Below, one piece after another: positions 8,537 through 31,817 of a stretch of 64,000 bases of DNA (position 1 is the stretch's first letter; each line of letters opens with the position of its first letter). The notes beneath the pieces are model-generated. The model saw only the letters and a list, made by a program, of their open reading frames with translations. It was not told the origin of the DNA and did no database searches. The position numbers were made by a program, and so were the translations under genes. The stretch is from assembly GCA_963281255.1 (NCBI GenBank), contig OY725496.1, positions 930,001-994,000 of the forward strand, given 5' to 3'. The stretch is from Aphrocallistes beatrix. Its lineage: Eukaryota > Porifera > Hexactinellida > Sceptrulophora > Aphrocallistidae.

Positions 8537-8674
8537 CATAGCCTACTATACATATGGCCTAACAGTAAAAAACCCATGGATATTTCAGAAGTCATATCTA
8601 ATAGTACATTTCAACAATGTGGTTATCATTTGTATTAATTAATTGACATTTGACAAAAGTGGTAAATTACATAA

Positions 8675-11455
8675 TCAGGAAGTTCTATGTTTCTTTGCAC
8701 TCTTAACATCACTGTCTGTAGTAGTTGGATGTGTTAGTTTCTTAAGTTTTCGAGTAGTTTCCTTTTGTTTTGATTGGGAAATGACCATAGAATTGAAATT
8801 TTTGACCTTGTTTGCTATTATGCAGTTTGATGTGATGGTTAAAATTCGTTTAAGATAATCCCACCCAAAAAGATTGCAATTGGGACATTTGCTTCTCCAA
8901 TGTTCGCACTGAGCATCTTCTAGCGAAATGATAGAAAGTTCTAAAAGTGTTTTTTTGGGCGCTCCACTAGCAAATCTAATAAGCAGATCATTATCCTGCT
9001 CAATAAGTCTGAAGATCTTCCAAACTAGTACCACAGCATCTAGAACAATATCAGATGGCCATTTTAGATTACCTCTATCAATAACTTCTAAAATTTTATA
9101 CTTCGAATCCGGAGGTTCGTCGAGATGAAGGTATTTGTCTTCTATCAAGCACATCATACACTCACTACAGATTGAGGTATGCTTCCATAACTGCTGAACA
9201 CAATAACCCCCAATAAAGGCTAAAGATTGTAGAGTAGCGGTATCAAGAGAAATATCTGACAAACCAAAGATCACATTTGAGTAAATATCAATATCACTTG
9301 AAGTATCGGTAGTAGTATCATCAGTTGTCGCAGAAAAGGAGCTTATAAAGTCGGACAGAGTTAAGTCATTTGACTGTTGGTTAGAAAATATATTTAGGAT
9401 AGTAGAGACCTTGAGTCGTCGTTCACTCTCGAGAATTTGACAATAGGAAATGTGGTAGTTGGCTCCCGACATCATTCTGTATAAACCAAAATGATGTTCT
9501 AATGCGTCTGTTTGCAAAAAGTAAGTCAAGAAGTAAGTAAATCCACGTTCCTTTGTAAGATAGTTAACTATCCTTGGTAACGCAAGACATGAGTGTTTGA
9601 TACTAGTAAAAGTCTGAGCACTAAGTTTCCCATCTTTTCCGGGAAGTGATTTCCATTTGTCTAGCCAGTCTACAATTTTAGCTAAAAAGCCAAAACGAAA
9701 GTCATTGTAGTAAAATTGTTCAGAAATATCATCATTAAGGCGGATATTCTTGTTGGGCCTGTTAACATTAAAAATCTTCCAAAGCTGGTTAATCGTATTG
9801 ATAAATTCTGAAGTGTGTGTCTTGAACTCCTGAGTACGGGATAAATTCTGAACTTTGATCGCTGAACTGGTGGATTCGCAAAAAATTCTCAGAGCAAGGC
9901 TAACATTTTGACGTTCGAAAGATGTCGGCCAGCAAGCCTTTGCGATTAATCTTGGAGCAAGTTTAGCACATTTATATTGTTCTTCCCTGTATAAAAGACG
10001 AATGTCCTCGAAAGAAGCGCTGTTCACCTGTTGGAAATCCTCAAAGCTAGGATACTTGAGTATTCTGTCATGGTTCTTGACGTTAAGCCAGTTATTACGA
10101 ATCGATTTTAGGACATGAACAAAATCAAAAATCAAAAACAAATTACGAGTGGAATCTACCGGATGTTGTACAACAGGCTGTAGTGTGTGATCAGAAGAAA
10201 ATAATTTGAAGAGATTTACGTTGAGAGGATAGGCATCGGTACTAATTACTTGAACTGAGAGGTTACATTGCTCGACATCACTTATCACTGATTGAATAGT
10301 GGGAAACAATTTCTGGGCAGAAGAACTGCCTAATGGTAAAAGTCGAACTATTGTAGACCATTTTCTGAAAAGGCTAGATACTATTATGGAGAAGACTGTC
10401 TTTGTCGGGTCATTCGGATCTAAAGAACCACCAACAATTTTTCCAGTTTTGTATGTTAGATCTGATTTCACATGTATCTCGTACATTTGTAAAATTACAT
10501 TCTTCTCTTGAGGGGTGAAATTTGATGTTGCTTGCTTGAGATATGTCGTGAAGTTATCGTCAAGCCCAAATGAAGAATACAGCTTTTGTATTGTATTGAA
10601 ATGTGGTAGAGCCAAACATTCTAGAGACTGTAGAAAATTATAACATGTTGAAGAAATGAGGTGAGCCTTGAGCGCTATAATTTGAGTGATGGTATTATAT
10701 CTTCGCCTATTCTTCTGAATACATAAATTTCGGAGCTGACAAAGTGTAAATTGAAGCGAAGGAAGAAGATGAATATCATTGGATTTATCATCAAACTCTT
10801 CCTGTGAATGATCTTCAAGATGGGATACTGCATTCTGAATATTAGTGATAGCTTCAGCGATCATATCCTTAGGCTGGGAAATCTTTGTAGAAGAACAGGA
10901 TATTGCTTCTACTAACTCTGTAAGTAGTGTTTCGATTTGTCTGACATCAGTTATGCAATTAATCCTTAAGGATATCTCTTTGGATTGAAAGTATCCACGT
11001 GCTGTCATCGTAGAATCGATGGTCAATGCGGCTTCGACCCTAATAATTCCTTCTGATTTAGATGGATAAATGAAGTTTAGCATGTTGTCCTGTGACAACC
11101 ACAGAAGCCAAGGTTCCGGATAGCAAGAAGTTATTTTCTCCTTCAGATCAGAAAAACAATCTACTTTAAACTTTTTCGTTTCTATATCTTGTGTTTCGAG
11201 GCTAAGATTTCGAGCGGTGATAAATAAATCTTCTTCCTTAGATTCATGCGAAAACCGAGATAGTCTTGATGTCTTCGTAGAGGATAAATAGCTAGGACAT
11301 CCAGGAAGTATTGAAGGTATAGCACCTTTAACTAAAATTGGCCTCTCTCGTTTGGTATACTTGATCTCCACGCCATCATTTACTCGGATCGTATTTTCAA
11401 TATCCCGTTCGTGGAAATGCATGGCACACACAAAAAACTCTTTGTATACCACTTC
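8675..11455 (-). CDS. P-type (THAP9-like) transposase, main exon
   Basis: Uninterrupted frame of about 926 codons. The first residues (E-V-V-Y-K-E-F-F-V-C-A-M-H-F-H) are the end of a THAP zinc-binding domain (the C-x2-H-F part), so the protein starts in an upstream exon; an AG acceptor lies at 11456-11457 after a TATATAG tract, and the in-frame stop there precludes a start further up. Numbering from the GTG codon at 11452, the RNase H-like part shows ISTDAYPLN (D406), the D-F-V-H-V-L-K-S-I-R-N segment typical of P/THAP9 enzymes and DALEHHFG (E652). Where an early catalytic acidic pair (D-E) is expected, it reads MYEIHVK (Y324-E325). The C-terminus is C/H-rich (CSECMMC, CPNCNLFGW) and basic. 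Length fits THAP9-type proteins of about 900 residues. It could be an old autonomous element or a domesticated gene; the surrounding element ends favour the first. Confidence 0.82.
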   Translation of the reverse strand, partial: EVVYKEFFVCAMHFHERDIENTIRVNDGVEIKYTKRERPILVKGAIPSILPGCPSYLSSTKTSRLSRFSHESKEEDLFITARNLSLETQDIETKKFKVDCFSDLKEKITSCYPEPWLLWLSQDNMLNFIYPSKSEGIIRVEAALTIDSTMTARGYFQSKEISLRINCITDVRQIETLLTELVEAISCSSTKISQPKDMIAEAITNIQNAVSHLEDHSQEEFDDKSNDIHLLPSLQFTLCQLRNLCIQKNRRRYNTITQIIALKAHLISSTCYNFLQSLECLALPHFNTIQKLYSSFGLDDNFTTYLKQATSNFTPQEKNVILQMYEIHVKSDLTYKTGKIVGGSLDPNDPTKTVFSIIVSSLFRKWSTIVRLLPLGSSSAQKLFPTIQSVISDVEQCNLSVQVISTDAYPLNVNLFKLFSSDHTLQPVVQHPVDSTRNLFLIFDFVHVLKSIRNNWLNVKNHDRILKYPSFEDFQQVNSASFEDIRLLYREEQYKCAKLAPRLIAKACWPTSFERQNVSLALRIFCESTSSAIKVQNLSRTQEFKTHTSEFINTINQLWKIFNVNRPNKNIRLNDDISEQFYYNDFRFGFLAKIVDWLDKWKSLPGKDGKLSAQTFTSIKHSCLALPRIVNYLTKERGFTYFLTYFLQTDALEHHFGLYRMMSGANYHISYCQILESERRLKVSTILNIFSNQQSNDLTLSDFISSFSATTDDTTTDTSSDIDIYSNVIFGLSDISLDTATLQSLAFIGGYCVQQLWKHTSICSECMMCLIEDKYLHLDEPPDSKYKILEVIDRGNLKWPSDIVLDAVVLVWKIFRLIEQDNDLLIRFASGAPKKTLLELSIISLEDAQCEHWRSKCPNCNLFGWDYLKRILTITSNCIIANKVKNFNSMVISQSKQKETTRKLKKLTHPTTTDSDVKSAKKHRTS

Positions 11456-11740
11456 CTATATATTGTGTCGCTTGAGCCACCGTGTAAAATTATGGCCACA
11501 AACCACCCGACCTTCCCTCAAGAGTAACGACATTACAAGGGCATTACTAAGCGATACGAATGCTCAAATACAAATCAATCTTAGGAAGTTGATGGGAATG
11601 ATACTCTCTCAGATTCAAATATCTGATAATGGAGCCTACTTTTTAGGGAAGGACGAGTGGTGAACGGGTGATTTGTGGCCATAATTTTACACGGTGGCTC
11701 AAGCGACACAATATATAGGACGTGGTATACAAAGAGTTTT
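11435..11740. repeat. Palindromic insert in the P-type gene
   Basis: Arms of about 70 bp are nearly identical in inverted orientation (CGCTTGAGCCACCGTGTAAA...), 11435-11506 and 11669-11740, around a 160 bp centre. The outer part of the arm contains the first codons of the main transposase exon (CTCTTTGTATACCAC), so the repeat either arose by inverted duplication of the exon edge or contributes the acceptor. It separates the two THAP exons. Confidence 0.7.
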
Positions 11741-11859
11741 CTCTAGATTTTGATTCTGTAAATTGGTATCACTTGTGAATGTGTTAAGAAGTAAATTCAA
11801 GCTTCAATATCGATCCAATAAGGTACAATAAGAGTATATGATAGCACTGATTAGAACTT

Positions 11860-11915
11860 TCTGACCGCCCTAAGTAGTTGCTCTTACATCCAGGAGCCCA
11901 GCATCTGTTTGGCAT
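11860..11915 (-). CDS. THAP domain first exon of P-type transposase
   Basis: ATG at 11915 starts MPNRCWAPGCKSNY, the C-x4-C start of a THAP domain; compare MPNRCSVANCWSNY at 40105. The match ends after about 15-20 residues, so a donor site is expected near 11860 (GT at CGGTCAG or AAAGTT). With the main exon beginning at 11455 it would supply the two N-terminal zinc ligands. The middle of the THAP domain (conserved proline and tryptophan segment) was not found, so an exon may be missing or lost to the palindromic insert. Expression is unproven. Confidence 0.62.
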
Positions 11916-12344
11916 AATCTCGATATTAAGGCGAATAGTAAAGCTAAATAAAATTTCTAATGTGCAGGGAGAAATTAATAAGAATATTAAACAGGAATGA
12001 GCACATGGGAAAGGAAATTGGGTAAGATGGGAACCAAAATATAGAATATACACTATACTAAGTATAATCAGATATGCGAAATAATTACTACTTAATTAAT
12101 TAAAACAAATAATACTATTATAGTATACTGTAGGGACTATGGTAATGTTATTAATTAATTGTAGTCATCTAAATTTGTAAACACTATTTAAGGTTGGGTA
12201 TTATTTAGTATAACTATTATTGTGTACCCATAATATGTAGCAGATAAAAATAGCATATTGTCGAATGAAATACTCAATGACTTCTAGCCAATCCATGGTC
12301 ACAATTTTTCTTTGAGTTGTTGGGCCAGAGTATAGTAGGCTATG

Positions 12345-12384
12345 GTGAGGTCTATTAAATTCTCCGATACCAGACCCTCTGCTT
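12345..12384 (-). pseudogene. NHL gene remnant, right of P-type element
   Basis: Continuation of the remnant at 8345-8536: the TCTCCGATACCAGACCCTCT motif of the NHL genes follows the 7-bp duplication and stops at the start of a family A repeat. Confidence 0.6.
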
Positions 12385-12610
12385 CATATCCATCATTCTA
12401 TTGTGACGTCAACATTACGCATCAAAATTGTAAAAATTGACAAATTTGGTGATTTTTTGTGCGATATCGATTATAACAGTAGGACCGACGTATTTAGAGA
12501 TGTTATCACCCTTATTATTAATCAAAGTGACCCCAGGCGCCCAAAGTGCGCCTCCGGCGGACACAAAGTGTCCGCCAGCCGCGCAGCGCAAGCAAGCGAA
12601 GCGCGCTTGT
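12385..12610 (+). repeat. Repeat family A, copy 1 (right part)
   Basis: Contains the family A landmarks in order: ATTACGCATCAAAA, TGGTGATTTTT, CGATATCGATTATAACAG, TATTTAGAGATGTTATC, the perfect hairpin at 12556-12576 (stem GGCGGACAC / GTGTCCGCC, 3-nt loop) and the end GCAAGCGAAGCGCGCTTGT. Its other terminus (ATTAATCGAGTTTTAATAGT) is found at 13871-13898 beyond a foldback insertion. Confidence 0.8.
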
Positions 12611-12617
12611 ATATATG

Positions 12618-13860
12618 TTATGGGCAATATGAGAAATTGGTCATTTTGCATAATGCCTAGGCAATATGCATAATGATATTTTCTGAGTCAATATGCATAA
12701 TGTCCAGACAATATGCATAATGCTTCTCTCATTGGACAATATACATAATGTCCAGAGACAATATGCATAACGAACCCTTTGATTTTGGTCGCTTTTTTGA
12801 TTGAATTTCTCTTCCGCTAGTTATATAACACCGGTCGACACAATTTCACTTGTTCAAACATTGGTCTTGCTCCTAGCAAAAAATTATGAATGAATGGGTA
12901 CGATTCGGCCATCATTAACTATTATTAGAAACTTATCTCTGCTCCACCGCCTGCATCAAGTTTACTTACCGCTGAACTATAGTTATTATTTAAAACATTA
13001 CATTGAATTTCAACTACACGATATATTTAATAGTTAACGGCTAGTGATTTACCCTAACATGCTAAACATATTTAGAAATAGGGTCATTGAAATATTTCCA
13101 TGTATCAGGCACTTCGCATGATGATAACGCAAACAATAATGAGAGAATGATAATGAAATGCTACTCAATCATAGGCTATGACTCAATTCACAAAATTGTT
13201 AAAAATAATTAGTAGAAATAGGTTTCTATTAAATTTAACCTCTGATCAATAAATATGTATCTTTGTTTAGTAAAAATAATGCTGACAGCAAGAAAATTTG
13301 TATAATGCGTATGGAAAATTGTATTTCGTATATTGTCCAATGAGAGAAGCATGCGAAGTACCTGATACATGGAAATATTTCAATGACCCTATTTCTAAAT
13401 ATGTTTTTCATGTTAGGATAAATCACTAGCCGTTAATTATTAAATATATCGTGTAGTTGAAATTCACTGTAATGTTTTAAATAATAACTATGGTTAAGCG
13501 GTAAGTAAACTTGATGCGGGCGGTGGAGCAGAGATAAGTTTCTAATAATAGTTAACGATGGCCTAATCGTACCCATTCATTCATAATTTTTAATTAGGAG
13601 CAAGACCAATGTTTGAACAAGTGGAATTGTGTCGACCGGTGTTATATAACTAGCGGCAGAGAAATTCAATCAAAAAAGCGATCGAAATCAAAGGGTTCGT
13701 TATGCATATTGTTTCTGGACATTATGTATATTGACTCAGAAAATAGCATTATACATATTGTCTGGACATTATACATATTGACTTAGAAAATAGCATTATG
13801 CATATTGCCTAGGCATTATGCAAAATGACCAATTTCTCATATTGCCCATAACATATACAC
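12618..13860. mobile_element. Foldback element, 1.24 kb palindrome
   Basis: The two ends are long inverted repeats. The outer parts (12618-12780 and 13690-13858) contain several spaced AATATGCATAATG units; the inner arms (to about 13090 and from about 13345) are unique but also inverted copies, including the GTATCAGGCACTTCGCATG segment. The loop is about 250 bp. No coding frame; no obvious direct target duplication. It sits within family A copy 1. Confidence 0.8.
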
Positions 13861-13870
13861 AAACAAACAA

Positions 13871-13898
13871 ACATTAATCGAGTTTTAATAGTAAGGAT
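13871..13898 (+). repeat. Family A outer terminus
   Basis: ATTAATCGAGTTTTAATAGT plus AAGGA, identical to the terminus at 58355-58380; it is the missing end of family A copy 1. Confidence 0.7.
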
Positions 13899-13967
13899 GA
13901 ATTTCCTATGTAGTCCTGGCTGGTAGAATTATTCGTTCCGAAAAGAAGGGACTGATAATAAAGTATA

Positions 13968-14556
13968 CAGGGTGTCTCAAAAGTTCTGCAACAAATTTTG
14001 TTAATGTATTATACATAGATAAATAGATCGAACATCCGATACCTCATTTTAATCAAAAATAGTGAGGATATCTTAATTATTTGGCATTCCAATGGCCTGT
14101 ATTTCTCAATTTATTTGCAATGATGGATCATATATTTCATTGTCTCTTAAATAATATTTTTTAACTCAATAAAAAATCTCACATCCCAGCTACATTTTAT
14201 GGCTATACTTTAAAAAGACTCGTTCTTATCGAAGATTACTGCAACATAAATCAAAAGTAATAATATTATTTTAGTATTATGAATCAATTACAGAATATAG
14301 AATTGATTGATGTAATATTTCATTAGAAAAATAGTTATCTTCAAACTTAACACTTTTGAGCTCCAAATTTTTGAGTAATTAGTATGTAATTATATAAAAT
14401 TTTATGAGAATCTTTTTTGCGTAATGAGTTGGGCTCATTTCTATGCTAGAAGGGTGCTAGATTTCATTTATGGGGGCTAATTTGGAATACAATCAAGTGA
14501 TCTTAGTCAAATTAACAAAGTAAAATTGGTTGTTGCAGAACTTTTGAGACACCCTA
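13968..14556. mobile_element. mariner-type MITE (589 bp)
   Basis: Ends CAGGGTGTCTCAAAAGTTCT...inverted at 14530-14556 over about 26 bp with one terminal change, flanked by TA at 13966-13967 and 14557-14558. The interior has no open frame. The end sequence resembles, but is not identical to, the ends of the mariner at 2934 and Tc1 at 17802. Confidence 0.85.
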
Positions 14557-14588
14557 TATATACAAATAGATAGAGATTAAAGTTGAAT

Positions 14589-14689
14589 GAAGGCTCCACT
14601 AAGTTCTGACCTCAGACGAAAATGTGGACTTATCAAGGAATTATAACGTAATTGTAACCTTTCAACTTGAGCAAGCAAAGCGCGCTTGT
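14589..14689 (+). repeat. Family A, short deleted copy
   Basis: The CTCCACTAAGTTCTGACCTC start segment is joined directly to the GC-rich end (GCAAGCAAAGCGCGCTTGT); the whole middle is missing. The 250 bp around it are also similar to 20306-20640, so the deleted form itself was copied. Confidence 0.65.
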
Positions 14690-15122
14690 GATAATGAGTT
14701 GATGCATATAATCTGAGGAGGGATCGGGTTAATTAACCTAAATCTGTTCAGAACTGAAATACAATGGAAACTCAAAATCAAAATCAAAGGGAACTATCTT
14801 CAACCAGAATCTGTGGAATTATTGTGGACTTTTGTGTGAATTGTATTTGAACGACTCAAACGTTTTCACTCGAGATATGTTTGTGTACTAGAATCAATCA
14901 AATTTGTGTTATGAAAAGGTATACAGCTTTTATTGCTATTCATGTAGCATGTTTTAAGAGAGCAGGTTTAGTATTATGAAGGTATTGATACATCTTATCT
15001 GATATTATCTGAACGTATCTATTAAAATCATTTCTTATGAGCGCGCTTCGATTGCTTGCTTTTCGTGTAAAAACCCACTCATTTTACTAAATGCCTAATT
15101 TGACCATCTGCATGTAATATAT

Positions 15123-15640
15123 ACAAGCGCGCTTCGCTTGCTTGAGATGCTCGGCTGGCGGACACTTTGTGCCCGCCGGAGGCTCCCTTCGGTCGCATGC
15201 GGTCACCATTGATTAATTATAAGGGAGATAACATCTCTAAATACGTCTGTCCTACTGTTATAATCTACATCGCACGAAATATCACCAAATTTATCAAATT
15301 TTAACATTTTTGATGAGTAATGATGACGCCATAACAACCTAATGAACCATCATTTTTTAATGATAGTTGCATCATATGTGAGATATGTTAGCATACAGAA
15401 TCTATTAAAATTTCAGCTTTCTATCTCCTATAATGACTGAGTTATATTCGAATAACTGTATTGCTTAACTTTCAAAATATGACAATGACGTCATAATTCC
15501 ATGATGAGTCGACATTTTCGTCTGAGCTCATAACTTCAATCAATTCGTTACATTCGTTACATGAAATGACTGAAGAAACTGCAAGGCACAGAAAGCTAAT
15601 TTTTGACATGTGGGAGTCTTTTAGAGTCATCAAAAAATAT
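15123..15640 (-). repeat. Family A copies, head to head
   Basis: A minus-strand copy begins with ACAAGCGCGCTTCGCTTGCT at 15123, has the stem-loop GGCGGACAC...GTGCCCGCC, and ends near 15561 with CAATCAATTCGTTAC. It is followed immediately by the opposite orientation (TGAAGAAACTGCAAGGCACA), truncated at about 15640. Confidence 0.75.
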
Positions 15641-16019
15641 GAATTATTCCATGTGGAAGATTCATCAGTGGCACTTCACAATGAAAAGTTATATATGTAA
15701 TTAAAATACATCACTGTACAATTGATCCTAATATTGATCCTTTCATTTCTTCGAAAATCAAACAAACAAACACAAACAGTTAACAGATTCTGAATCGAGT
15801 TTGAATTATCTGAATCTGAGAGTTGGGCCTATCACAAATGAGCCACAAACACAAATATCGATTGAACTTTATTGAAAAATTATGTAATATAAAAGAGACG
15901 CCCAATCGCGGCTAATCACCCATAACAATTATAAAATAGTTGCATTTATTCACATTGCAACAGTATTGAACTAACATGTAATAATCACTGTATAATTTAA
16001 TAAAATCATCAGTTATCTT

Positions 16020-16652
16020 ATATATTAAAATGCTAAGATTTTTTTTGTTTTTGTTTGTCCGAATTGATTGGAGAATTGGAAAGTCGTAGAGATATGAAAA
16101 TTTGCATGTAGGTGTCAAATGATATTACTACGATTAAGTTCTAAGATCTAAGCGAAATTTTAACACATCTGCAAAAAAAATGGAAAACAATGTTTCGCAC
16201 CTTTTCTATACAAAATAAATGACTACACAATCACAATAGAAATCATTGTACAAGTACGACACTACAAATAATGCTGAAAATAAAGACTAACTTCCAACGG
16301 GTGACATGGGGTCTTCAGGGGTGTAGATTTCGAATTACTTATTTTCATATCTATATGATAAATTATTTGTTTACTTTTGTTTACAATAGATACATAAAGT
16401 AAACAAATCTCAAAAATATGCCAGAAACTTGCTTTAAACGGTTGACATGGGGTTTTCAGTGGTGTAGATTTCGAATATCATATTTTCAGATGTATATGAG
16501 AAATTATTCGTCGATCTTTGTTGACAATATTTATTTAATGGAAAAAATTTCCAAAATATGTTTGATTGAGTGACTCCAGGCGCCCGCAGGGCGACTCTGC
16601 GGACACGCAGTGTCCGCAAGCCGCGCAGCGCAAGCAAGCGAAGCGTGCTTGT
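16020..16652 (+). repeat. Repeat family B, copy at 16.0 kb
   Basis: Starts TATTAAAATGCTAAGATTTT and GTCCGAATTGATTGGAGAA; contains two imperfect tandem units of about 130 bp (GGTGACATGGGG / GGTTGACATGGGG to TTTGTTTACAATAG-like); ends with a GC-rich block with hairpin GCGGACACGCAGTGTCCGC and GCAAGCGAAGCGTGCTTGT. The GC-rich end is shared with family A, the body is not. Confidence 0.78.
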
Positions 16653-16837
16653 ATCATAAAATAATCATAAGTATTTTTAATGCATAATAAATTGTACCAA
16701 CGAACATATATTGATTGTAATCACATTTGAATACGTGTAATCGCCTAATTACTATCAGCTGATTGCTAGCGGACAACCAATCACTTGGTGCCTTACTTAG
16801 CTACTTGTGTGTCGCGTGGAGTTAATGCTCTATATTT

Positions 16838-17801: not shown

Positions 17802-19134
17802 CAGGGTGTCAGATAATTATTTTCAAATTTTAATTTGATTATATGCGAAGAAGTAGATGTTGCAGGCATATATCAATCATTTTATGTGTTCATTTATGAT
17901 AATATATTAATAATCAATTTTATAACCATCTCTATCTATTAAGAGACGGCATCTTTTAGGCATAGAAGACCAGTAAGGCTCTAGGAATACAGGATCGATA
18001 TTGCTCCAAATGTCATTAAGCTCACTTTTAAGGGCCGAAATGTTCTTTGGACTGCGTTTGGACAGTTCGTACTTGATCCAACCAAAGAGATTTTCTATTG
18101 GATTAACATCTGGACTTTGGCTTGGCCACTCTAACCTCCTATTAGGCATATTTTCGTTCATCCAAGCCTTTGTTGCCTTCGAGGTGTGCTTTGGATCGTT
18201 GTCCATAACCAAAACCCACTCTTTATTGTGAAATACTTTTGCTTGTGCTAATAAATGAACCTCCAATATCTTTGTAAATAGGGACGAGTCAAGATTTTGA
18301 GTGAATATGCATAAAGGAAATGTTCCTACGGACGAAAATGCAGCCCAGATGTGTATTTTCTGTGTATGTTTGCAAGTGGGTTGCAGGCGAATTTGACCTT
18401 TTTTGGTCCACATTCTGACACGACCTCTTGATAGCCATATAGAAGCTTCATCAGCAAAAATTGAGTGTTCCCATCTTCTTGACATATTGCACTTAGCCCA
18501 TTCTACCCTATAAAGGCGATTCTTTTCGCTTAACATCGGAATTTTTACTGGATACGGCTTCGAGTACTCAAGGTTACGAAGACATCTGTGTACTGTATCT
18601 CGAGAGATAATCACTGGTGATTTTGATGTCAATGTTCGTATAGAGGTAGTAGGATCCAAGCTGATGGATTTCGCGACAAATTTCTTTATTTGAGGAATAA
18701 GTTTAGAGGGTCTACCTGCGCCTTTCTTGTGTTTAATCCCAACTCCTGATTTAATGCTAGAATTTACATTGTAAACAGTCCTGGTGGACACACCTACAAG
18801 TCGACTAATTTCTTCAATCGAGTGCTTTTTACCATCTAATAAGATTCGTATGTGAATGCGCTTTGATAGTTGAGACATAATAGAACAAATTATCTAGCAA
18901 ATAATTGTAAAAATATCAATAAATAAAAATCAATAAAAAAAGTCGCGTCATCATGATGACGTAACGATTTTCAACCTAAAAATCAAATTGTCCACTTAAA
19001 TGAATGATTTTAAATTTAGTCAAAGCCTACTTAGGTTCATTTCCACCAGCAAAATGCAGCTAGTCATAGTTGCTCTAGGTTCTGAAACCATGAATGATAA
19101 ACCAATGTTTTGAAAATAATTATCTGACACCCTG
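17802..19134 (-). mobile_element. Tc1-like element, 1.33 kb, complete
   Basis: Inverted ends CAGGGTGTCAGATAATTATT (about 25 bp, near perfect), flanked by TA at 17800-17801 and 19135-19136. One uninterrupted transposase frame on the minus strand. Both ends and the frame look intact, which makes it the youngest-looking DNA transposon here. Confidence 0.93.
17907..18878 (-). CDS. Tc1-type transposase, intact (323 aa)
   Basis: DDE cut-and-paste transposase acting on the ends of its own element. The N-terminal half has paired HTH units (HSIEEISRLVGVSTRTVY; then a GRPSKL hook and TSIRTLTSKS...ISRDTVHRCL). The catalytic core has IFADEASIW (first D), LVMDNDPKHTS (second D) and SPDVNPIENLFGW (E), with 35 residues between the second D and the E by my count, so DD35E rather than the common DD34E. 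Ends WxxxPxRC-type MPKRCRLLI. No frameshift or stop over 323 codons, and both element ends are present. Start MSQLSKRIHIRILL is the first ATG inside the element. Possibly active or recently active. Confidence 0.93.
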   Translation of the reverse strand: MSQLSKRIHIRILLDGKKHSIEEISRLVGVSTRTVYNVNSSIKSGVGIKHKKGAGRPSKLIPQIKKFVAKSISLDPTTSIRTLTSKSPVIISRDTVHRCLRNLEYSKPYPVKIPMLSEKNRLYRVEWAKCNMSRRWEHSIFADEASIWLSRGRVRMWTKKGQIRLQPTCKHTQKIHIWAAFSSVGTFPLCIFTQNLDSSLFTKILEVHLLAQAKVFHNKEWVLVMDNDPKHTSKATKAWMNENMPNRRLEWPSQSPDVNPIENLFGWIKYELSKRSPKNISALKSELNDIWSNIDPVFLEPYWSSMPKRCRLLIDRDGYKIDY

Positions 19135-21009: not shown

Positions 21010-22224
21010 ATGGCTACGCGTGAAGGTATTAGAGGAGGTTTGGAGGGATTGGATCGGTTCGATGCTTTAACACAGGAAATAAAAGAGAAGTTCTCTCACT
21101 TCCATTCTCTGCTCGAAACACGAAGAGTGTTTCTTCTTAAGAGAGTGAAGAAAATGAGAGAACTCTACCAGCAGCATCAGGAACTGTCAGTGGCGATAAA
21201 AGAGGTGGAAGATTTCAGTAAAGCAACCAATGAAATGTTGAAAATGAATTTGACTGCAAAGAAGAAAGAAAATACAATTAAAATGTGGGATGATGAAATT
21301 GAAGAGTTAACTGGAAAAAAGGCGGGTTTGCATCAAGTTTCTGCTCTTAAGTTCCTCGACAATAGTGAAATGTTTTCTGATTGTGTGAAGAGAATACATT
21401 TGAGAGAAATAGAAGCAGTGGAGTATAGTAAAAGAAGGGAACCCATTTTCATGAACGAGAAGATAGGATACGGTGAAGGGGAAGTTATTAATCCACAAAG
21501 TTTATCTATTGACGATGCGAATAACGAGGTTTTTGTTGTTGATTACATTAAGAAATTAGTATGTGTCTATTCTTCAGGAGGGGATTTTATTAGAAACTTT
21601 GGAAAAGAACAGCTGAATGGACCTTATGGCATTTGTCTATCTGGAGAATTCATATTTGTATCAAATCTATTAAGTTCAGTAATTTCCAAGTTTAGTAAAA
21701 CTGGAGAGTTTGTGAAGAGTTCTAACTTAGAAGGTGAGAATGCTATTCAGCTTAAGAATCCAAGAGGTATGTGCGTACATAATGAATTTGTATATATTTG
21801 TAATTATGGACATAATAGAATCGAAATGTTGAAACTAGATCTGACATTTGTTAAGAATTTCGGAGAAGATAAACTAGAATATCCACGAGATATCAAACTA
21901 TTCAAAGATCAGATATTTGTTCTCGTTCAACTTAATAGTACAATTCACACATTCAATATAGAACACAATTATCTCCGTTCTATCCATTTCACAGGACTAC
22001 AGAGTCAGATATCTAATGCTTACTTCTTCTCAATTGACAATAATGGTAACTTTATAGTTAGTGACAAAGAACCTGGTTGTTTGAAAGTATTCAATCCTTC
22101 AGGAGAACATGTAGAGACACTAGGAAAAGGATTTCTGTCTCTACCTCAAGGTGTCGCTATAGATAATCAACAGCGTATTGTCGTTATTTGCTTGTCGAAT
22201 TATAAATGTTTCCAAGTTTACTAA
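21010..22224 (+). CDS. Coiled-coil/NHL-repeat protein, intact (404 aa)
   Basis: Residues 1-125 are charged, leucine-rich and helical (a coiled coil: EIKEKFSHFHSLLETRR, KKMRELYQQHQEL, WDDEIEELTGKKA). From about residue 150 follow six NHL-type blades, for example NPQSLSIDDANNEVFVVDY, GPYGICLSGEFIFVSN, NPRGMCVHNEFVYICN, AYFFSIDNNGNFIVSD and LPQGVAIDNQQRIVVI, making a beta-propeller for protein or RNA contacts. This is the TRIM-NHL layout without RING and B-box, so no ubiquitin-ligase activity is expected from this chain alone; cytoplasmic scaffold is the best guess. A stop codon directly precedes the ATG (TGAATGGC), so the start is fixed. Single exon. Paralogue at 23883. Confidence 0.9.
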   Translation: MATREGIRGGLEGLDRFDALTQEIKEKFSHFHSLLETRRVFLLKRVKKMRELYQQHQELSVAIKEVEDFSKATNEMLKMNLTAKKKENTIKMWDDEIEELTGKKAGLHQVSALKFLDNSEMFSDCVKRIHLREIEAVEYSKRREPIFMNEKIGYGEGEVINPQSLSIDDANNEVFVVDYIKKLVCVYSSGGDFIRNFGKEQLNGPYGICLSGEFIFVSNLLSSVISKFSKTGEFVKSSNLEGENAIQLKNPRGMCVHNEFVYICNYGHNRIEMLKLDLTFVKNFGEDKLEYPRDIKLFKDQIFVLVQLNSTIHTFNIEHNYLRSIHFTGLQSQISNAYFFSIDNNGNFIVSDKEPGCLKVFNPSGEHVETLGKGFLSLPQGVAIDNQQRIVVICLSNYKCFQVY

Positions 22225-23631: not shown

Positions 23632-23882
23632 TCGGAGCGTCTCTGCTTACGGCAATGTGTATATCTCAAAGGTATAATTATTCTCGATTAGCTGACCGTG
23701 GTTCATTTTAGTCAATAATGATTCCATAAATACAAGCGAAAGCAGTGTACTCTACGATAATACAATTGTCTACCAACTGTAATCAGATATCTCTTTAGAC
23801 ACAATTAAGAAATAATTCGTATTTAATTACATCTCAGCTAGATATGTATATATTATATGGATTATTGAGTTCTATTGAGTGA
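23632..23882 (+). promoter_or_regulatory. Upstream region of the second paralogue
   Basis: Duplicate of 20748-21009, starting right after the family C copy, which therefore marks or caused the left limit of the visible duplication. Confidence 0.4.
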
Positions 23883-25075
23883 ATGGCTACGCGTGAAGGT
23901 ATTGGAATTGGTTTGGAGGGTTTGGATCGGTTCGATGGTTTGTTACAGGAAATAAACGAGAAGTTCTCGCATTTCCATTGTCTCCTCGAAACACGAAGAG
24001 TGTCTCTTATTGAGAAAGTAAAGAAGATGAGAGAACTCTACCAGCAGCATCAGGAGCTGTTAGAAGCAATCAAACAGCTGGAAGTAGTTAGGAGAACAAC
24101 CAATGAAGTGTTGAAAATGAATTTGACTGCAAAGGAGAAGGAAAATACAATTAAAATCTGGGATGATAAGATTGAGGAGTTGACTGGAAAAAAGGCGGAT
24201 TTAGAACTAGTTTCAACTCTAAAGCTTGTCGAAAATGATGAGTTTTCTGATTGTGTACAGAGAATACATTTGAGAGAAATAGAAGCAGTGGAGTATTGTA
24301 AGAGAAGAGAACCTCTTGTCATGAAAGGGAATATAGGATATGGTGAAGGAGAAGTTATTGATCCTCATGGTATATCTATTGACGATGCGAGTAATGAAGT
24401 GTTTGTTGTTGATTACTATAAGCACTTAGTATGTGTCTATTCCTCTGAAGGAAATTTTATGAGAAAATTTGGAGAAAAACAGTTAAATAAACCTTATGGC
24501 ATCTGTCTATCTGGTGAATTTCTATTTGTCTCAAATTTATCAAGTTCAATAATTTCCAAGTTTAATAAAACTGGAGAGTTTGTGAAGAGTACTAGCTTAG
24601 AAGGTGAGAATGCTATTCAACTTAAGAGTCCAAAAGGTCTGTGTGTACATAATGAATTTTTGTATATTTGTAATAAGGAACATAACAGAATTGAAGTATT
24701 GAAATTAGATTTGACTTTTGTTTCGAATTTTGGAGAAGACGAACTAGTAAATCCGGGAGATATCAAACTTATTCACACATTCAGTACAGAGCAATTCACA
24801 CATTCAGTACAGAGCACAATTATCTCCGTTCTATTCATTTCACAGGACTACAGAGTCAGATATCTAACGCTTTCTTTTTTACAATTGACAATGGAGGTAA
24901 TTTTATTGTTTGCGACAGAAAAGCTGGTTGTTTGCAAGCACTAAATTCTTCTGGGGAAAGTTTAGAGACATTAGGAAAAGGATTTCTACTTCGACCTCAA
25001 GGTGTCGCTAGAGATATTCAACAGCATATTACCGTCATTTGCTTGTCGGATTATAAATGTTTACAAGTTTACTAA
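23883..25075 (+). pseudogene. Coiled-coil/NHL paralogue, frameshifted
   Basis: Near-duplicate of the gene at 21010 (same MATREGI start after TGA, same coiled coil and blades). Reading is clean for about 295 codons to PGDIKL. At 24775-24830 a 23-bp unit ATTCACACATTCAGTACAGA(GCA) is present twice and about 40 bp encoding a strand of the fifth blade are lost, which changes the frame; the open frame then runs on in a wrong frame to 24944. The rest of the propeller is still recognisable in DNA to the TAA at 25073-25075. Could yield a truncated protein with coiled coil and four blades. Few other changes, so the loss is recent. Confidence 0.85.
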
Positions 25076-25429
25076 CCTATTTAACATTTTCTATTCGTTT
25101 GTTATTTCTTATTAGTGATTTAAATAGGTTTAGTTATTTCTGATATGTCCCTTATTGTAATGAGAATTGTTAAGAAAAACCTATATCCTTGGATAGTAGC
25201 CGGGGCATATATATAAATTTTCAGCCCCGTTAATCATATGATGAAGAAGGAATATTTCAGATTTAAGCATTGGCTTAGAAAACGATATTCACTGTTCTCT
25301 ATCCGGATCTAGAGTGACTATTCCCCAGAGCGTGTAAATTGTGAACCTGTTTCAGTAGTCAGACGAGACTTTGTGTTCACGCTCAAATTTTAATAAGAAG
25401 TGCTGTTCCAATCTGACAATCTGGATTTA

Positions 25430-25690
25430 GGAGGCGTGGACAGAATCCCAGGTCGAGAGTGGTTGAAGGATGCTACATCTGCGGGGGCCGACATTCGTGG
25501 CGTTTCTGTCTAGATAAGAGATCTCCAGTTTGTGGAGAAAAGGGCAATATTTTGAAAGATTGTACAGTCAAGAGGTCAAGCGGCGAGGACAGGAAGATCT
25601 GGCGTATCGGACAAGCAGGGTCAACGGATACTCTAGCAGTAGTGCTTCTAGTGTTAATAATTAACGGCGAAAAAGTTCAAGCATTACTCG
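25430..25690 (+). pseudogene. Retroelement zinc knuckle/protease fragment
   Basis: In-frame stretch GCYICGGRHSWRFCLDKR and SPVCGEKGNILKDCTVKR, a pair of cysteine/histidine knuckles as in retrotransposon gag-pol, followed by INGEKVQALLEKSE where a retropepsin would read L-L-D-T-G. The coding match ends there and passes directly into the tandem repeats. Only a fragment of an LTR-type element; no LTRs seen. Confidence 0.6.
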
Positions 25691-26020
25691 AAAAGTCTGA
25701 GAATTCTATGGGCAGCTATGTATCATAGAATATAATAGAAATGTCTGAGAATTCTATGGATGGCTATGTACGTATAATAGTATCTAAAGAAATGTCTGAA
25801 AATTCTATGAGTGGAATGCATCATAGACGATAATATAAATGTCTGAAATTTCTATGGGTAGCTACATATGTACAGTAGCATACTGATAACTTATCAAAAT
25901 AAATGTATGAACTTCCAATACGAAAATCCATAGTATGCATAAGCATGTGTCTGAGAATTCTACAGCAAAGATAAATCCATGGTTTCATAATACAGTGTCT
26001 GAAAATTCTACGCAACAGAT
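25690..26020. repeat. Degenerate tandem repeat, 45-50 bp units
   Basis: Six or seven units start with ATGTCTGARAATTCTAYGG (25693, 25742, 25793, 25840, 25948, 25996) followed by a variable AT-rich tail. It directly follows the broken protease fragment. Confidence 0.7.
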
Positions 26021-26317
26021 CTAATAAATACTTCGATCAGCTTATGACACTCACATTCAATTAATTTGAGATAAAATACAGGTTTCAGTGCGGATGCGTG
26101 TTTAATGCGGGTCACCTGAGGTCTATGTACTGTCTTACCAGCTCTTACTGAAGAATTTAACAGGGTGGCTCATAAGTTCTGTGACAAGCTTCATTACATA
26201 TAAAATTTCTTATACTCAAACAATCTTAGTTATTAGGGTCTATAGAGATTGTAATTCAAATATTCTCAATGATTTTAAAAGATCTTTCCAGTCTAAGACG
26301 TGGAACTGTGTTTTGTA

Positions 26318-26756
26318 TGGTGATTTTATGGGGGAAAAATGTGTCCTAGCACGCAGCGAAAATTGAGAATTAGGACCCACTGCTTTCGAATGATCATTCT
26401 AGAGTCTTCAAATTCTCACATTTTCCTCGAACACTCTAAATTTGTAGAAATATAAGATGTTTATATCAGTACATATTGAGAACCATTTGGATCAGATTTC
26501 TGGTGGTATGAAAAAAGTGCAATTTTGGGTGATTTTGCAAAATGTACCTAATTTGATCTCGTGAAATAATAACTTTCTCTCATTCCTGATAATGAATTCA
26601 ATGGATTTTTGAAGTACTTCCATAGTGAATGAAAGGTATCTGGTGCTAAATCGTCATTGAACATCGATTATGAAGACATGTTTTATAGAAGCAGTGACCT
26701 TGATTCTCGAGTTTCGCTGCGTGCTAGGACACATTTTTCCCCATAAAAACTCACCA
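26318..26756. repeat. Inner inverted repeat in the composite
   Basis: 54-bp arms (TGGTGATTTTATGGGGGAAA... at 26318-26371 and its complement at 26703-26756), flanked by TA on both sides. The interior (TCTTCAAATTCTCACATTTTC...) recurs at 30487-30640. Non-coding. Confidence 0.6.
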
Positions 26757-26895
26757 TAAGCTTTATCGTAAAACCTCTGACCATATGCTAAGCAATGCCA
26801 TTATCCCTTCTAGTGATAAAAACAAGTTAATATCTATCTTCATGGATCAGCAACGCTCCTTTTACAAGAATGTATGATTATCTCGATACATCAAC

Positions 26896-27438
26896 ATGGA
26901 GAGACTGATGGATCCTACCAATGGAGACCTCTATCTCATCGAAGTTTTGGTTAATGTTGATGGATTGAGCAGTAGAGAACTGTTGATATCTGAGTATGTT
27001 GTGTTAGGACACACTTCTCTCCCTCAAGATATTCTCTGCCGCCCTACAGCTATGAAAATGCACAGAAACACTTCCATTCACTTTCTCGTAACACATCGCA
27101 ATCTCCCACACATGTTGCGAGAGTTTGTTCAGAACATGGAACGGATCTACGTTGAAACGGGAGATGAGGATTTCGGTGTAATAATTGTTAACTATGAATC
27201 TCCTCATATTGATGCTATAACTCTGATGCGTCAGAGCAAACTGAAACACTGATCTATCATAGAGATGGATGGACCATTTGAGAGGACTACTGCAATCAAT
27301 CTCGGAATTGACAGTGTGAGTAACCCAGACAACATTATATTCACTGTCGATCTCTACCTCTACATTCCTTCTCATCTCCCTGACACCACCCGTAAGCACA
27401 CGTTTCAAGGCTATTCTGGATTTGCTCCTATCGTATAA
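26896..27438 (+). pseudogene. Chondroitin GalNAc-transferase-like fragment
   Basis: 118 codons from 26896 to a TGA at 27250, after which the same frame stays open to 27438. The protein reads NGDLYLIEVLVNVDG, then RNTSIHFLVTHRNL...MLREFVQNMERI, and after the stop GPFERTTAINLGID, NIIFTVDLYLYIP and RKHTFQGYSGFAPIV. This order (a V-P-L-like strand, F-x2-F-x-x-N-x-E-R, G-F-S-R-A-like loop, D-x-D region) is that of chondroitin synthase/CSGalNAcT glycosyltransferases. The metal-binding D-V-D is degraded to D-L-Y. It is a piece of the catalytic domain only, with an internal stop, inside the composite element, and so is probably a captured or processed fragment. Confidence 0.5.
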
Positions 27439-27611
27439 CCATCTGGGGGGTCTCAGGCGCTGTAAGTCCCTAGCGTGGTTCAGCGGATAGATTAATTATA
27501 ACAATATTTGATACTGATAAACAAAATAATATCAGTGATCGATCGAAATGGATGTTTAAGCATTTGAGATGTTTTTCCTTTCTGCAGCTTCTATTCCCTC
27601 TGTATCTATTA

Positions 27612-28142
27612 TTAAGAAAAATTTGAAGTCATCCATCTAGGTTCATTTAATTCCATAACAGAACCATATACCCCTCTGGTACATCTGCCAGAACTTGTGA
27701 GAAATTTGCACCCAAATGCATAGTTTAGGAGAGTTGATTTTCCTGAGCTCTGAGGACCGATAATACTCAACACAATGGGAGCTTCAGTGATCTTTATAGG
27801 ACCTTTGTTATAGCGTTGTACGAAGTCAGTTTGTTTAACATGAAAATGTCGCAGCATGCTATTTATTTCTTTGCTGAAAAAAACAAGGTCATCCCCGTCA
27901 ATCAGTTCGAATGGTTCACCACTTATCACATTATTGCACATACTCCTACTTAAGTAATCAAAGTACTCATTAATTGACCTGAGCTTTGCATTGGAATATT
28001 TATTACTCAGAACAGCTTCTCTCCACAGAATTTCGATGGAATATTTATCATTGGCTTGTTCATTGTTGAGAGGTGTTTTTAGGTTAAAAGACATACAAAA
28101 CACAGTTCCAGGTCTTAGACTGGAAAAGTCTTTTAAAATCAT
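27612..28142 (-). pseudogene. Very-large-GTPase (VLIG/GVIN-like) fragment
   Basis: Open frame of 176 codons. Residues near 125-160 read IVLSIIGPQSSGKSTLLNYA with P-loop G-x4-G-K-S, then SSGRCTRGVYGS, where the T of CTRG would be the switch-I threonine. The preceding 120 residues (EINSMLRHFHVKQ, QRYNKGPIKITEAP) match the pre-GTPase region style of interferon-inducible very large GTPases/URGCP. It ends at MTSNFS without the remaining G motifs, so only about a tenth of such a protein is present. Its first 17 codons lie inside the right inverted repeat arm and have a decayed mirror copy in the left arm (26270-26322). A captured, non-functional fragment is most likely. Confidence 0.65.
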
Positions 28143-28213
28143 TGAGAATATTCGAATTACAATCTCTAAAGACCATAACAGCTAAGATTGTTTGAGTATA
28201 AGAAATATTATAC

Positions 28214-29203
28214 CATAGCCTACTGTATATAAGGCCTCACAGTAACTTGCGAATTTGGGACTAGGGATGCGGTAGAAGATGGTTGAACTAATACATGAGC
28301 TGCCTTAAATCATTAACACAGCACAATAGAGCTTAGGAATGTATTGCCAGCATATATAAATATGGCGTCAAACTACCCATATCCGTTGTTAAAATTTAGA
28401 TCAGTCACCATATGGTTGCACAATAGGTTATATTTGTGACAAATTTGTCGATTTTCAGACGCCGTTTAGGGGCACTTCTAAGTGTTTTTATTATAGTTTT
28501 TTTCGCTTAGATGTGATTGGGTTAAAACGAAGAATCCAGAACTTTTTCATGGAATGTTGCTACGGAAACGTGTTTTGGTCAGTTGGGGTTATATCTTGAA
28601 ATCTACAATAGCTACACATTCAAATGTAATTCCATTTGATAGCGAATATACTACTTCCTATTAAGCAATAATATAATTTCGACATAAAATCAATGGTTTA
28701 CGAGATATTCCGCAATATATCTATTGATCACATTTGGCAATTTGTCGAATATCTCGTAAACCATTGAATTTAGAGGTCAAATTATATTATCGCTTAATAG
28801 GAAGTAGTATATTTGCTATCAAATGGAATTATATTTGAATGTGTATCTATTGCAGTTTTCAAGATATAACCCCAACTGACCAAAACACGTTTCCATTTCA
28901 ACACTGGAATGTAGCAACATTCCATGAAAAAAATCCAGATTTTTCGTTTTAACCCATTCACGAAAATCACCAAATTTGTCGCAAATATAACCTATTGTGC
29001 AACTATATGGTGACTAATCTAAATTTTAACAATGGATATGGGTACTTTAACACCATATTTATATATGCTGGTAGTACATTCCTAAGCTCTATTGTGCCTT
29101 CTCAATGATTTAAGGCAGCTCATGATTAGTTCAACCATCTTCTACCGCATCCCTAGTTCCAAATCCGCAAGTTGCTGTGAGGCTTTATATACAATGGGCT
29201 ATG
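28214..29203. mobile_element. Palindromic MITE with P-type ends, copy 1
   Basis: 990-bp near-perfect palindrome, arms about 480 bp, starting CATAGCCTACTGTATATAAG and ending in its complement. Flanking 7 bp ATTATAC is duplicated exactly (28207-28213, 29204-29210). Ends match the P-type transposon at 8537 at 29 of 33 positions. No reading frame. It lies in the right arm of the composite element. Confidence 0.88.
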
Positions 29204-29606
29204 ATTATACTAAATGAAGCTTGTATCAGAACTTATGAGCCACCCTGGTCCCTGAATAATCCCGTAATTGATTGCAATATTTCCCATTTAGCGCAAATGA
29301 ATATTCGTTAGGATTTTTCGAAGGAATATCTGAATATTTGGTAGTATATATATTTTTATTTCAGCTCTATTCAGCACTACTTAATGAATTTTCCAATTTA
29401 CAACAGAGTCGGGTTTTTTTCAATTATCCAATCTGAATTTTTCAGATATCTTCCACATTCTAAATTATTTTTTTCTCTTAGCAATGATTTCACTTTACTG
29501 ATCTTCAACTTGACATTCATTGGTATTCTCATTTATAATAATACAGGTTGTGTCTTAGTTAAAGTATAACAGTTCAATTCAATACAAACTATTCAAAACT
29601 AAAGAA

Positions 29607-30050
29607 ATGGCAACAAATATTCAAGAAATTGTCCCTTACGACACTACTGTGCATTTCGATCGCATCACGGACACATTGAATGGTCTGATTGATCAGTTGA
29701 TCGAGAGGAGAGACACTCTCTGTCAAGTAGTGGTACATCTTCGCGATGACTTCCATAACAAAGAGTCCACTTGTGTCACAGCCATCGAAGAGTTGGATCA
29801 AACTCAGCTGCATCTGAATCAAAATGAAGAAAGTGAACATCAACCTCCCCGCTCACGAGCAAGTAGGACTCGTGTACGAACAGGCCAAGCAACAGCTGTG
29901 TGTTCCCATCCCACTCCCCAACCTCTCCTTCTCCTGTCCCACCTTCTCCCTACTTCAGACACAGATAGAGCAGTTCGGAGATGTAGTCCTGCTGAAAGCA
30001 TCGAATTACTCTCAAAAGCAACAACTTATCCTAACCGCTGGGAGTCCAGT
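29607..30050 (+). pseudogene. Coiled-coil protein (TRIM/NHL type) N-terminal remnant
   Basis: ATG 29607 begins MATNIQEIVPYDTTVHFDRI, then a leucine/charged helix LNGLIDQLIERRDTL...CVTAIEELDQTQLHLNQNE. A one-base shift near 29825 moves the match into another frame: KVNINLPAHEQVGLVYEQAK, FSCPTFSLLQTQIEQFGDV. This layout (coiled coil, then a strand leading to NHL blades) is that of larger NHL proteins. It is cut at about 30050, where a Ty3 gag piece in opposite orientation begins, so the propeller is missing. The ATG is preceded by a clean AT-rich leader. Confidence 0.6.
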
Positions 30051-30484
30051 CCCGCGATGGCCTGCGCTACAACGACAGCATACCAAAGCCTGACTCCTCT
30101 TGGGCGTACTTTTCACGAGGTAAAGCTTCTCTGAGCTCACCTTTGAACTTTGCAGATCATGGACATTACGCTCCGCGGATTCTGTTGCTTGAGCTAGGTC
30201 GAAAGCCTTCTTAAACGTCAAATCCGGCTCGGAAAGCAAACGCCGTTGGATACCATTGTCGCTAATACCACACACAAGACGGTCACGGAGCATACCATTT
30301 AGCGAATCCCCGAAGCCACAATGCTCGGACTGCTTCCTTAGCTCAGTAACGTAGACCGCAACTGCTTCACCGTCCCTGCGAGACCGAGAGTGGAACGTAA
30401 ACCTCTCCACAATAACTGAAGACCTAGGCTGTAGGTGATTCTTCATTAGTTCAACCAGCTGCACGAAGGTCTTCTCGGCCGGTT
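30050..30484 (-). pseudogene. Ty3/gypsy gag fragment
   Basis: Minus-strand frame reads KTFVQLVELMKNHLQP, FHSRSRRDGEAVAVYVTELR, GFGDSLNGMLRDRLVCGI, LTFKKAFDLAQATE and a decayed knuckle CCRCSAGH. This is the capsid-like part and start of the zinc knuckle of a Ty3/gypsy gag of the K02A2.6 type. Codon usage is GC-richer than the neighbourhood, which suggests recent arrival. No LTRs, protease or polymerase adjoin. It is bounded by the coiled-coil remnant on one side and a MITE piece on the other. Confidence 0.78.
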
Positions 30485-30670
30485 TGAGTCTTCAAATTCT
30501 AGGAAAAATTAGCTCACACATTTTCCTCGAACATTAAAAATTTGTATATAAGATGTTCAGATCAGTGCATTTTGAAGACCAATTCGATCAGATTTTTGTG
30601 ATGTAAAAAGATTGCCATTTTGGGGAATTTTGCCTAATGAAGCTTGTAACAGAATTTATGGGTCACCCTG
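30485..30670. mobile_element. MITE right part, as in the composite
   Basis: Interior TCTTCAAATTCT...CATTTTCCTCGAAC and right end ATTTATGGGTCACCCTG followed by TA. The left end is missing, replaced by the gag fragment. Confidence 0.6.
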
Positions 30671-30737
30671 TAGTAAGTGAAATAGGCATCTACTCTATAC
30701 AGTTTCTAAGTATCACAAGCTAAGTGGTAACACGATT

Positions 30738-31817
30738 CATAGCCTACTGTATATAAGGCCTCACAGTAACTTGCGGATTTGGGACTAGGGATGCGGAGGA
30801 AGACCGTTGAGCTAATACATGAGCTGCCTTAAATCATTTACAAAGCACAATAGAGCTTAGGAATATATTATCAGCATATATAAATATGGTGTCAAAGTAC
30901 CCATATCCGTTGTTAAAAATTTGATTAATCACCGTATGGTTGCGCAATAGGTTATATTTGTGACAAATTTGGTGATTTTCAGAGGCCGTTTAGGGGCACT
31001 TCTATGTGTTTTTATTGTAAAATTTTTCGCATAGAACTGAGATGTGAATGGGTTAATAAATACGAAAAATTTGGAATTTTTTCATAGAATGTTGGTACAT
31101 TCCAGTGTTGCTATGGAAACGTGTTTTGGTCAGTTGGCGTTATATCTTGAAAACTGCAATGGCTACACATTCAAATGTAATTCCATTTGATAGCGAATAT
31201 ACTACTTCCTATTAAGTGATAATATAATATCAACCTCTAAATTCAATAGTTTATGAGATATTCGACAAATTATCAAATGTGACCAATATGGTACATTGTC
31301 GAATATCTCATAAACTATTGAATTTAGAGGTCGAAATTATATTATCTTTTAATAGGAAGTAATATATTTACTATCAAATAGAATTACATTTGAATGTCTA
31401 GCTTTTGCGGTTTTCAAGATATGACCCAAACTGACCAAAACACGTTTCCATAGCAACACAGGAATGTACCAACATTCCATTTTAAAAAATCCAAATTTTG
31501 GTATCAACTCATTCAAATCTCAGTTCTATGCGGAAAAATTATAATAAAAACAAAAGTGTCCCTAAACGGCCTCTGAAAATCGCCAAATTTGTCACAAATG
31601 TAGCCTATTGCGCAACCATATGGTGACTAATCAAAATTTTGACAACGGATATAAGTACTTTGACACCATATTTATATATGCTGATAATACATTCCTAAGC
31701 TCTATTGTGCTTTGTAAATTATTTAAGGCAGCTCATGTATTTGCTCAACGGTCTTCCTCCGCATCCCTAGTCCCTAATCCGCAAGTTACTGTGAGGCCTT
31801 ATATACAGTAGGCTATG
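30738..31817. mobile_element. Palindromic MITE with P-type ends, copy 2
   Basis: 1,080-bp palindrome of the same family as 28214-29203, CATAGCCTACTGTATATAAG to the complement. Exact 7-bp duplication CACGATT (30731-30737, 31818-31824). Arms about 500 bp around a short centre at about 31280. Confidence 0.92.

Follow-up and report, generated by a model that had tools for sequence, protein, structure and literature searches.

Palindromic elements with P-type transposon ends and 7-bp target duplications in the hexactinellid sponge Aphrocallistes beatrix

Among described members of the P superfamily of DNA transposons, whose accounts here follow excerpts of the cited papers, Galileo of Drosophila combines a THAP-bearing P-type transposase with 7-bp (rarely 8-bp) target duplications, a 15-bp palindromic target motif and long foldback terminal inverted repeats (TIRs) (PMC4168063), the latter measuring at least 600 bp in D. 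mojavensis and 1.2 kb in Galileo-G (PMC3573991, PMC3688188). Many Galileo copies consist of two TIRs without a transposase, and the long TIRs have been proposed to attract recombination and conversion (PMC3573991; also PMC4168063, PMC3688188). The Drosophila P element, with its THAP domain, its RNase H domain holding a GTP-binding insertion, and a target motif, has 31-bp TIRs and makes 8-bp duplications (PMC7776569), as does Pdre2/THAP9 of zebrafish, in which a THAP-RNase H-GTP-binding layout is flanked by 13-bp TIRs starting with CATA (PMC10983969). In Anopheles gambiae, 8-bp duplications are made both by P elements, with TIRs of 27-31 bp, and by non-autonomous P-type miniature inverted-repeat transposable elements (P-MITEs), which share ends and duplication length with P subfamilies around a P-unrelated centre (PMC1562414). 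Here we describe a 64,000-nucleotide stretch of the Aphrocallistes beatrix genome (the window; contig OY725496.1, positions 930,001 to 994,000) that carries a transposase-bearing element and two palindromes of about 1 kb, all with CATAG...CTATG ends. We consider it very likely that these represent one apparently inactive P-superfamily copy and two members of a large non-autonomous palindromic P-type family, moved by a transposase of the same clade resembling that of locus L056 elsewhere in the genome, and with arms kept alike by conversion.

The transposase-bearing copy, of subfamily A, occupies positions 8537..12344 of the window, with its transposase on the minus strand, between the 7-bp flanks GTGAGAT (8530..8536) and GTGAGGT (12345..12351), which agree at six of seven positions. 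The palindromes, at 28214..29203 (arm subfamily 2) and 30738..31817 (arm subfamily 1), lie between exact repeats of ATTATAC (28207..28213 and 29204..29210) and CACGATT (30731..30737 and 31818..31824), respectively. All three insertions were recognized in a first-pass annotation made from the letters alone, and their limits, ends and 7-bp flanks hold on re-examination, with one flank pair imperfect; to that set we add an unpaired end of the same kind at 61223..61279 (plus strand, 1 mismatch in 23), with arm-like sequence adjoining it at 61024-61187. No frame of at least 100 aa inside either palindrome appears in the open-reading-frame list, and the palindromes resemble MITEs in combining this lack of coding capacity with ends and about 150 bp of homology in common with L056. 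Across the genome (100.5 Mb, 28 contigs), the 23-base end matched 909 times in forward and 894 times in reverse orientation at up to 3 mismatches, counts that take in related subfamilies differing by up to 3 bases, and the reversed-pattern control matched nowhere on either strand. Searches with the window protein and with the L056 enzyme returned 65 and 90 matching stretches, many of them fragments, so that the copy number is smaller. Judged from these matches, the genome holds hundreds of copies of long palindromic elements and many relatives of the P element.

To follow the duplication length beyond the window, 40 palindrome-ended loci were fetched from the first 100 of 1803 places, and together with the window they gave 34 end pairs (three in the window and 31 in the fetched loci, where L032 contributed two pairings with a common right end). 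An exact 7-bp duplication flanked 24 of the 34, and 31 were within one mismatch of one, whereas none had an exact 8-bp duplication; shuffled flanks would be expected to give 0.74 pairs with a 7-bp repeat. Among transposase-bearing copies, including that of the window, the 7-bp duplication was exact in 11/14 and within one mismatch in 13/14, figures in which L066 is scored as failing on a misplaced end, although its flanks suggest GTAATAA on both sides; by inspection, L077 and an element at C1:4494517-4500745 have exact 7-bp duplications too. The 7-bp length proposed in the first-pass annotation is thereby confirmed in the genome sample, while its remark that this would be unusual for P elements does not stand for the superfamily, in which Galileo had already established a 7-bp duplication (PMC4168063). 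When 43 empty sites were rejoined, T stood at -3 in 35 and A at +3 in 33, with A at -4 in 27 and T at +2 in 29 (raw counts, without a shuffled control), describing a palindromic preference for ATAR before and YTAT after the duplicated 7 bp and a weak preference inside them.

The enzymes of these elements are, on domain and motif evidence, members of the P superfamily, as first proposed. The window's frame (8675..11455, minus strand, 926 aa) contains a TNP-like RNase H N-terminal domain (PF21787, 34.7 bits against a Pfam cut-off of 24.6), a GTP-binding insertion domain (PF21788, 26.3 bits against 24.8) and a THAP tail below cut-off, and the P transposase 6p5a, matched at E 2.4e-6, was the sole Protein Data Bank (PDB) sequence at E up to 1. 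The THAP domain, split in the window copy, reaches 37.8-53.1 bits against a cut-off of 23.9 in L054, L055, L056 and L077 and is whole by eye in L050; Pfam found no THAP match in the frames of L080 and L081, which begin after the domain's first part. PF21788 scored below cut-off in L055 (18.2) and L080 (20.6) and had no match at E 0.01 in L054, L056 and L081; hence the GTP-binding assignment is a narrow one. Three motif patterns (QM.EIH, [CS]T[DN].YP and LEHHFG), which we take, from alignment and background knowledge, to mark the catalytic residues, occur together in 19 of 30 loci, with an acidic residue changed in three of the 19 (L049, L051 and L066); the first Asp is absent in L055. THAP domains are present in several transposase families, which lends some colour to an enzyme from another superfamily, for example Kolobok. 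However, Kolobok makes 4-bp TTAA duplications in place of the 7 bp seen here, and with P-type RNase H and GTP-binding domains above cut-off and the P transposase as the only PDB match, we give this origin almost no credence.

The window's own copy looks inactive, because its first catalytic Asp is a Tyr (QMYEIH) and its THAP exon is disrupted. QMDEIH is kept in the subfamily A copies L050, L051 and L052 and in the C8 copy L058/L061. The first part of the THAP domain (MPNRCWAPGCKSNY) lies in a separate open frame (11784..12095, minus strand), which alone gave no Pfam match and is cut off by an inserted block that stands in place of the central part of the THAP-coding region. Within this block is a hairpin (11434..11740) with 76-nt arms, 97% complementary, and 155 nt between them; the block, which is missing from L050 and L051, contains the start of the adjoining exon copied in inverted orientation. 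L050 keeps both the first Asp and the THAP domain, and L051 has other lesions, though it is without the hairpin block and has QMDEIH.

Compared with the known systems, these elements share with Galileo the THAP-bearing P-type transposase, the 7-bp duplication, a palindromic target motif, and long inverted repeats in copies without transposase (PMC4168063, PMC3573991, PMC3688188). Unlike in Galileo, the transposase-bearing copies here have TIRs of only 28-193 bp, the longest being that of L056, and arms of about 500 bp sit in separate non-autonomous palindromes; the target is ATAR-N7-YTAT, whereas Galileo, in the text excerpted, has AANGT...ACNTT with GTANTAC, which is not found here. The P-MITEs of A. 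gambiae are likewise non-autonomous and tied to P subfamilies by ends and duplication length, with the difference of 8-bp duplications and a P-unrelated centre, and the text excerpted does not speak of long palindromes among them (PMC1562414); Pdre2/THAP9 shares the domain layout and the CATA start, and the Drosophila P element the domains, the presence of a target motif and the 6p5a match, both differing in TIR length and in their 8-bp duplications (PMC10983969, PMC7776569). An earlier report of the window's P-type palindrome family was not found in the open-licence literature, and what is new here is the ATAR-7 bp-YTAT palindromic target motif together with arms that evolve in concert.

Which transposase pairs with the palindromes is a question of end sequence. 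The outer 33 bp of element and palindromes had been reported to agree at 29 positions; by recount, the figure is 28 of 33 for the left end of the element (24 against the right end of 28214-29203) and only 15-19 for its right end. With the left end of 30738 as query, and the six ends of the three elements and the end at 61223 set aside, the best ungapped 33-mer elsewhere in the window scored only 21 on either strand, so the left-end likeness is beyond chance, and the element's right end, at 19, is no better than background. Taking the first 70 bases at the left end of each palindrome, L056 shares 60 positions with 30738 and 55 with 28214, and the window element 37 with each. From base 34 onwards, the window element agrees with the palindromes at only 9-12 of 37 positions, close to the chance level, whereas L056 agrees at 25-30 of them (its match to the left end of 30738 being 30/33 followed by 30/37), and the homology of the L056 TIR with the palindrome runs for 156 bp at 72%, weaker past the end bases. 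In a ranking of ends from 14 transposase-bearing copies (the L066 end being misplaced), L077 and 20 further loci, each of the latter read at one end on the N-terminal side of the transposase, L056 was nearest with a score of 50, and L102 was the best of the 20 at 44; four of these 20 (L084, L086, L090 and L101) had no convincing end, and as the ranking covers part of the transposase places, a closer partner than L056 may exist elsewhere in the genome.

Evolutionarily, a tree of 27 copies, built from in-genome enzymes only and thus without P, 1360, Galileo or THAP9 proteins, groups them largely by end sequence; exceptions are L064 and L078, which begin like L056 and are placed next to L054 and L068, whose ends are CATGG. 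The first of these CATGG-ended copies (L054, 1101-4691) is flanked by an exact 7-bp duplication; its 990-codon frame, uninterrupted from stop to stop, contains THAP as well as the three catalytic motifs, and L068 is its near-identical relative. With midpoint rooting, the subfamilies with the best-scoring ends in comparison with the palindromes form a group (support 1.000) that excludes subfamily A. An origin of the palindromes by deletion from the window's subfamily A transposon, or a partnership with it, in either case with its transposase moving them, would fit the 28 of 33 shared left-end bases and the 7-bp duplications made by both, yet it is hard to square with the collapse of the match past base 33, the poor right end, the place of subfamily A in the tree, and a window copy in which the first catalytic Asp is gone and the THAP domain is broken (though A copies such as L050 keep both), and we regard it as improbable. 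We see a relative of L056 in the same P clade, rather than subfamily A, as the most likely partner, because L056 has the nearest end and the window element is near chance past base 33. Of the proposal that the palindromes are non-autonomous partners of the window's transposon, their kinship with P-type transposases thus stands and the pairing with this particular element does not; a better match to another transposase, which the first-pass annotation had set against its own proposal, does exist, at the level of subfamily (L056) and within the same superfamily.

Three candidates for an autonomous partner with palindrome ends were rejected. L027 has palindrome ends and TIR-like arms and only a scrap of transposase inside; L013 (2.7 kb), similarly ended and armed, has no frame of at least 80 aa; and the transposase near the L047 palindrome end belongs to a separate element, C1:4494517-4500745, with its own ends and an exact duplication of GTTATAC. 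Nested within this last element is a related palindromic element (L079, 64-2394), whose inverted repeats of ~1 kb are 98% alike; it has an inner CATAGCACTCTGTATATAAGGCC end and is 79-81% similar to the palindrome arm. In L028, what appears to be a recent insertion of a long terminal repeat (LTR) retrotransposon splits a palindrome at 915-5260; it comprises a 1321-aa frame, gag-pol-like by reading, flanked by direct repeats of 165 bp that are 99% alike. Most subfamilies read carry, by eye, a CYANGGAT motif ~35-60 bases from the end, which we propose as a candidate THAP site because THAP sites lie at comparable distances in P (41-63 bases) and Galileo (about 70 bases; PMC3688188).

The arms of the two window palindromes, once taken to be perfect over nearly a kilobase, are 0.911 and 0.904 identical, i.e., about 90% symmetric. 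We aligned 27 palindromes, of which L032 proved non-palindromic and was dropped afterwards; arm identity ranged from 0.894 to 0.981 in the 23 full-length copies, 20 of which had arms more like each other than the mean to other copies (median 0.938 within a copy versus 0.908 between copies). At 52 variable sites in 25 copies (leaving out L012 and L032), 189 cases had the minor variant on both arms and 198 on a single arm, compared with means of 95 and 369 when arms were re-paired at random and a highest both-arm count of 144 in 300 trials. Two arm subfamilies differ at 13 sites spread along the arm, mostly with the same state on both arms: in 26 copies, only 24 of 294 readable cells (0.082) differed between a copy's own arms, against 0.496 after random re-pairing (lowest of 2000 trials, 0.243), a figure partly built in, as the sites were picked by subfamily. 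Two 21-base patterns were then searched in the genome, and among the matches listed, over the span covered by both lists, there were 142 places (42 type 1, 100 type 2), 94 of them unpaired; the 24 close pairs were 11 type 1-1 and 13 type 2-2, with no mixed pair against about 10 expected. Both end motifs were of one subfamily in 25/27 copies, the others being L019, with one end undecided, and the seemingly mixed L009, whose left motif is, site by site, in neither state on an arm otherwise of subfamily 1. Because long palindromes challenge assembly programs, and the centre of L018 is a run of N, arm reads collapsed or polished together might have created the likeness; we hold this very improbable, given that arms keep 2-11% differences and that the same 13 variants recur on both arms of many copies at different places.

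Between the arms lies an asymmetric spacer (31269..31295 in the palindrome at 30738, limits approximate by reading), and among the 25 centres shown, all 23 orientable copies of both subfamilies have the same one, L018 being unreadable and L032 unrelated. From the concordance of the arms and this spacer we infer arm-to-arm conversion, because the changes between subfamilies are mostly symmetric while the asymmetric spacer has stayed common to both. Alternatively, palindromes could have formed repeatedly, with one founding event per subfamily, by fold-back synthesis from a single arm. In its favour, lone arm-like sequences lie at 39186..39685 (71-72% identity to the palindrome arm, with an end resembling the L077 type by reading) and 54717..55143 (71-73%, without the outer end), and most diagnostic cells are symmetric in either subfamily; this is unlikely, though, in view of the spacer common to both subfamilies and of L011 and L030, where patches of the other subfamily's alleles occur on both arms. 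A single ancestral palindrome with arm-to-arm conversion explains these sequences best. The L077-like end at 39186-39685 suggests, in addition, that the arm sequence arose before the end types diverged.

Mechanistically, we posit that a same-clade transposase, most likely of an L056-like subfamily now rare or lost, moves the palindromes, its THAP domain probably binding near the ends at the conserved subterminal motif. Elements would be excised and inserted with a 7-bp stagger at ATAR-NNNNNNN-YTAT, leaving 7-bp duplications. The palindrome arms would represent the ends of the element itself, lengthened to about 500 bp; one founding palindrome, marked by its spacer, would have given rise to at least two subfamilies; and conversion between the arms of source copies, plausibly during repair of excision breaks, would keep them alike. 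Arm replacement may even be part of the life cycle, every excision and gap repair copying one arm onto the other via a hairpin and so keeping the lineage palindromic, a suggestion that we make tentatively and think rather unlikely.

Several observations weigh against this account. No transposase-bearing copy with the exact palindrome end was found among the loci examined; L056, the nearest, carries 10 mismatches in 70 bases against one palindrome and 15 against the second, with a TIR of 193 bp where the arms run to ~500 bp. The interior of L027 (5.8 kb, palindrome ends) holds only transposase scrap nearest the L080/L081 type, and the GTP-binding domain is above cut-off in the window copy alone, being below it or unmatched in the six relatives scanned. 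The fetched end pairs are all from contigs C1 and C2; in 10 of the 40 loci a second end could not be recognised, and these do not enter the counts, and the 7-bp duplication failed in two of 32 palindrome-ended copies (L017 and L022). Finally, with minor variants on one arm in slightly more cases than on both, the concert between arms is strong yet far from complete.

Elsewhere in the window, a 328-aa Tc1/mariner-like transposase frame (17907-18893, minus strand) has DDE_3 and HTH_Tnp_Tc3_2 domains above Pfam cut-offs. Two closely similar long frames on the plus strand (21010-22224 and 23883-24944) look, by reading, like TRIM/NHL-type tandem copies, the second of which appears disrupted, its likeness continuing in another frame at 24695-25075.

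Taken as sampled, a single compact genome houses diverse P-type subfamilies that have a duplication length and a palindromic target motif in common, which bears on how the P transpososome sets a stagger of 7 or 8 bp. The palindromes also offer a natural test of arm homogenisation, in which largely symmetric subfamily changes adjoin an asymmetric spacer that has escaped conversion. Should conversion be confirmed, the divergence between the arms of a copy would provide a clock for non-autonomous DNA transposons, and if arms are indeed replaced at each excision, this divergence would date the insertion much as LTR divergence does in retrotransposons, with the spacer marking the founding event.

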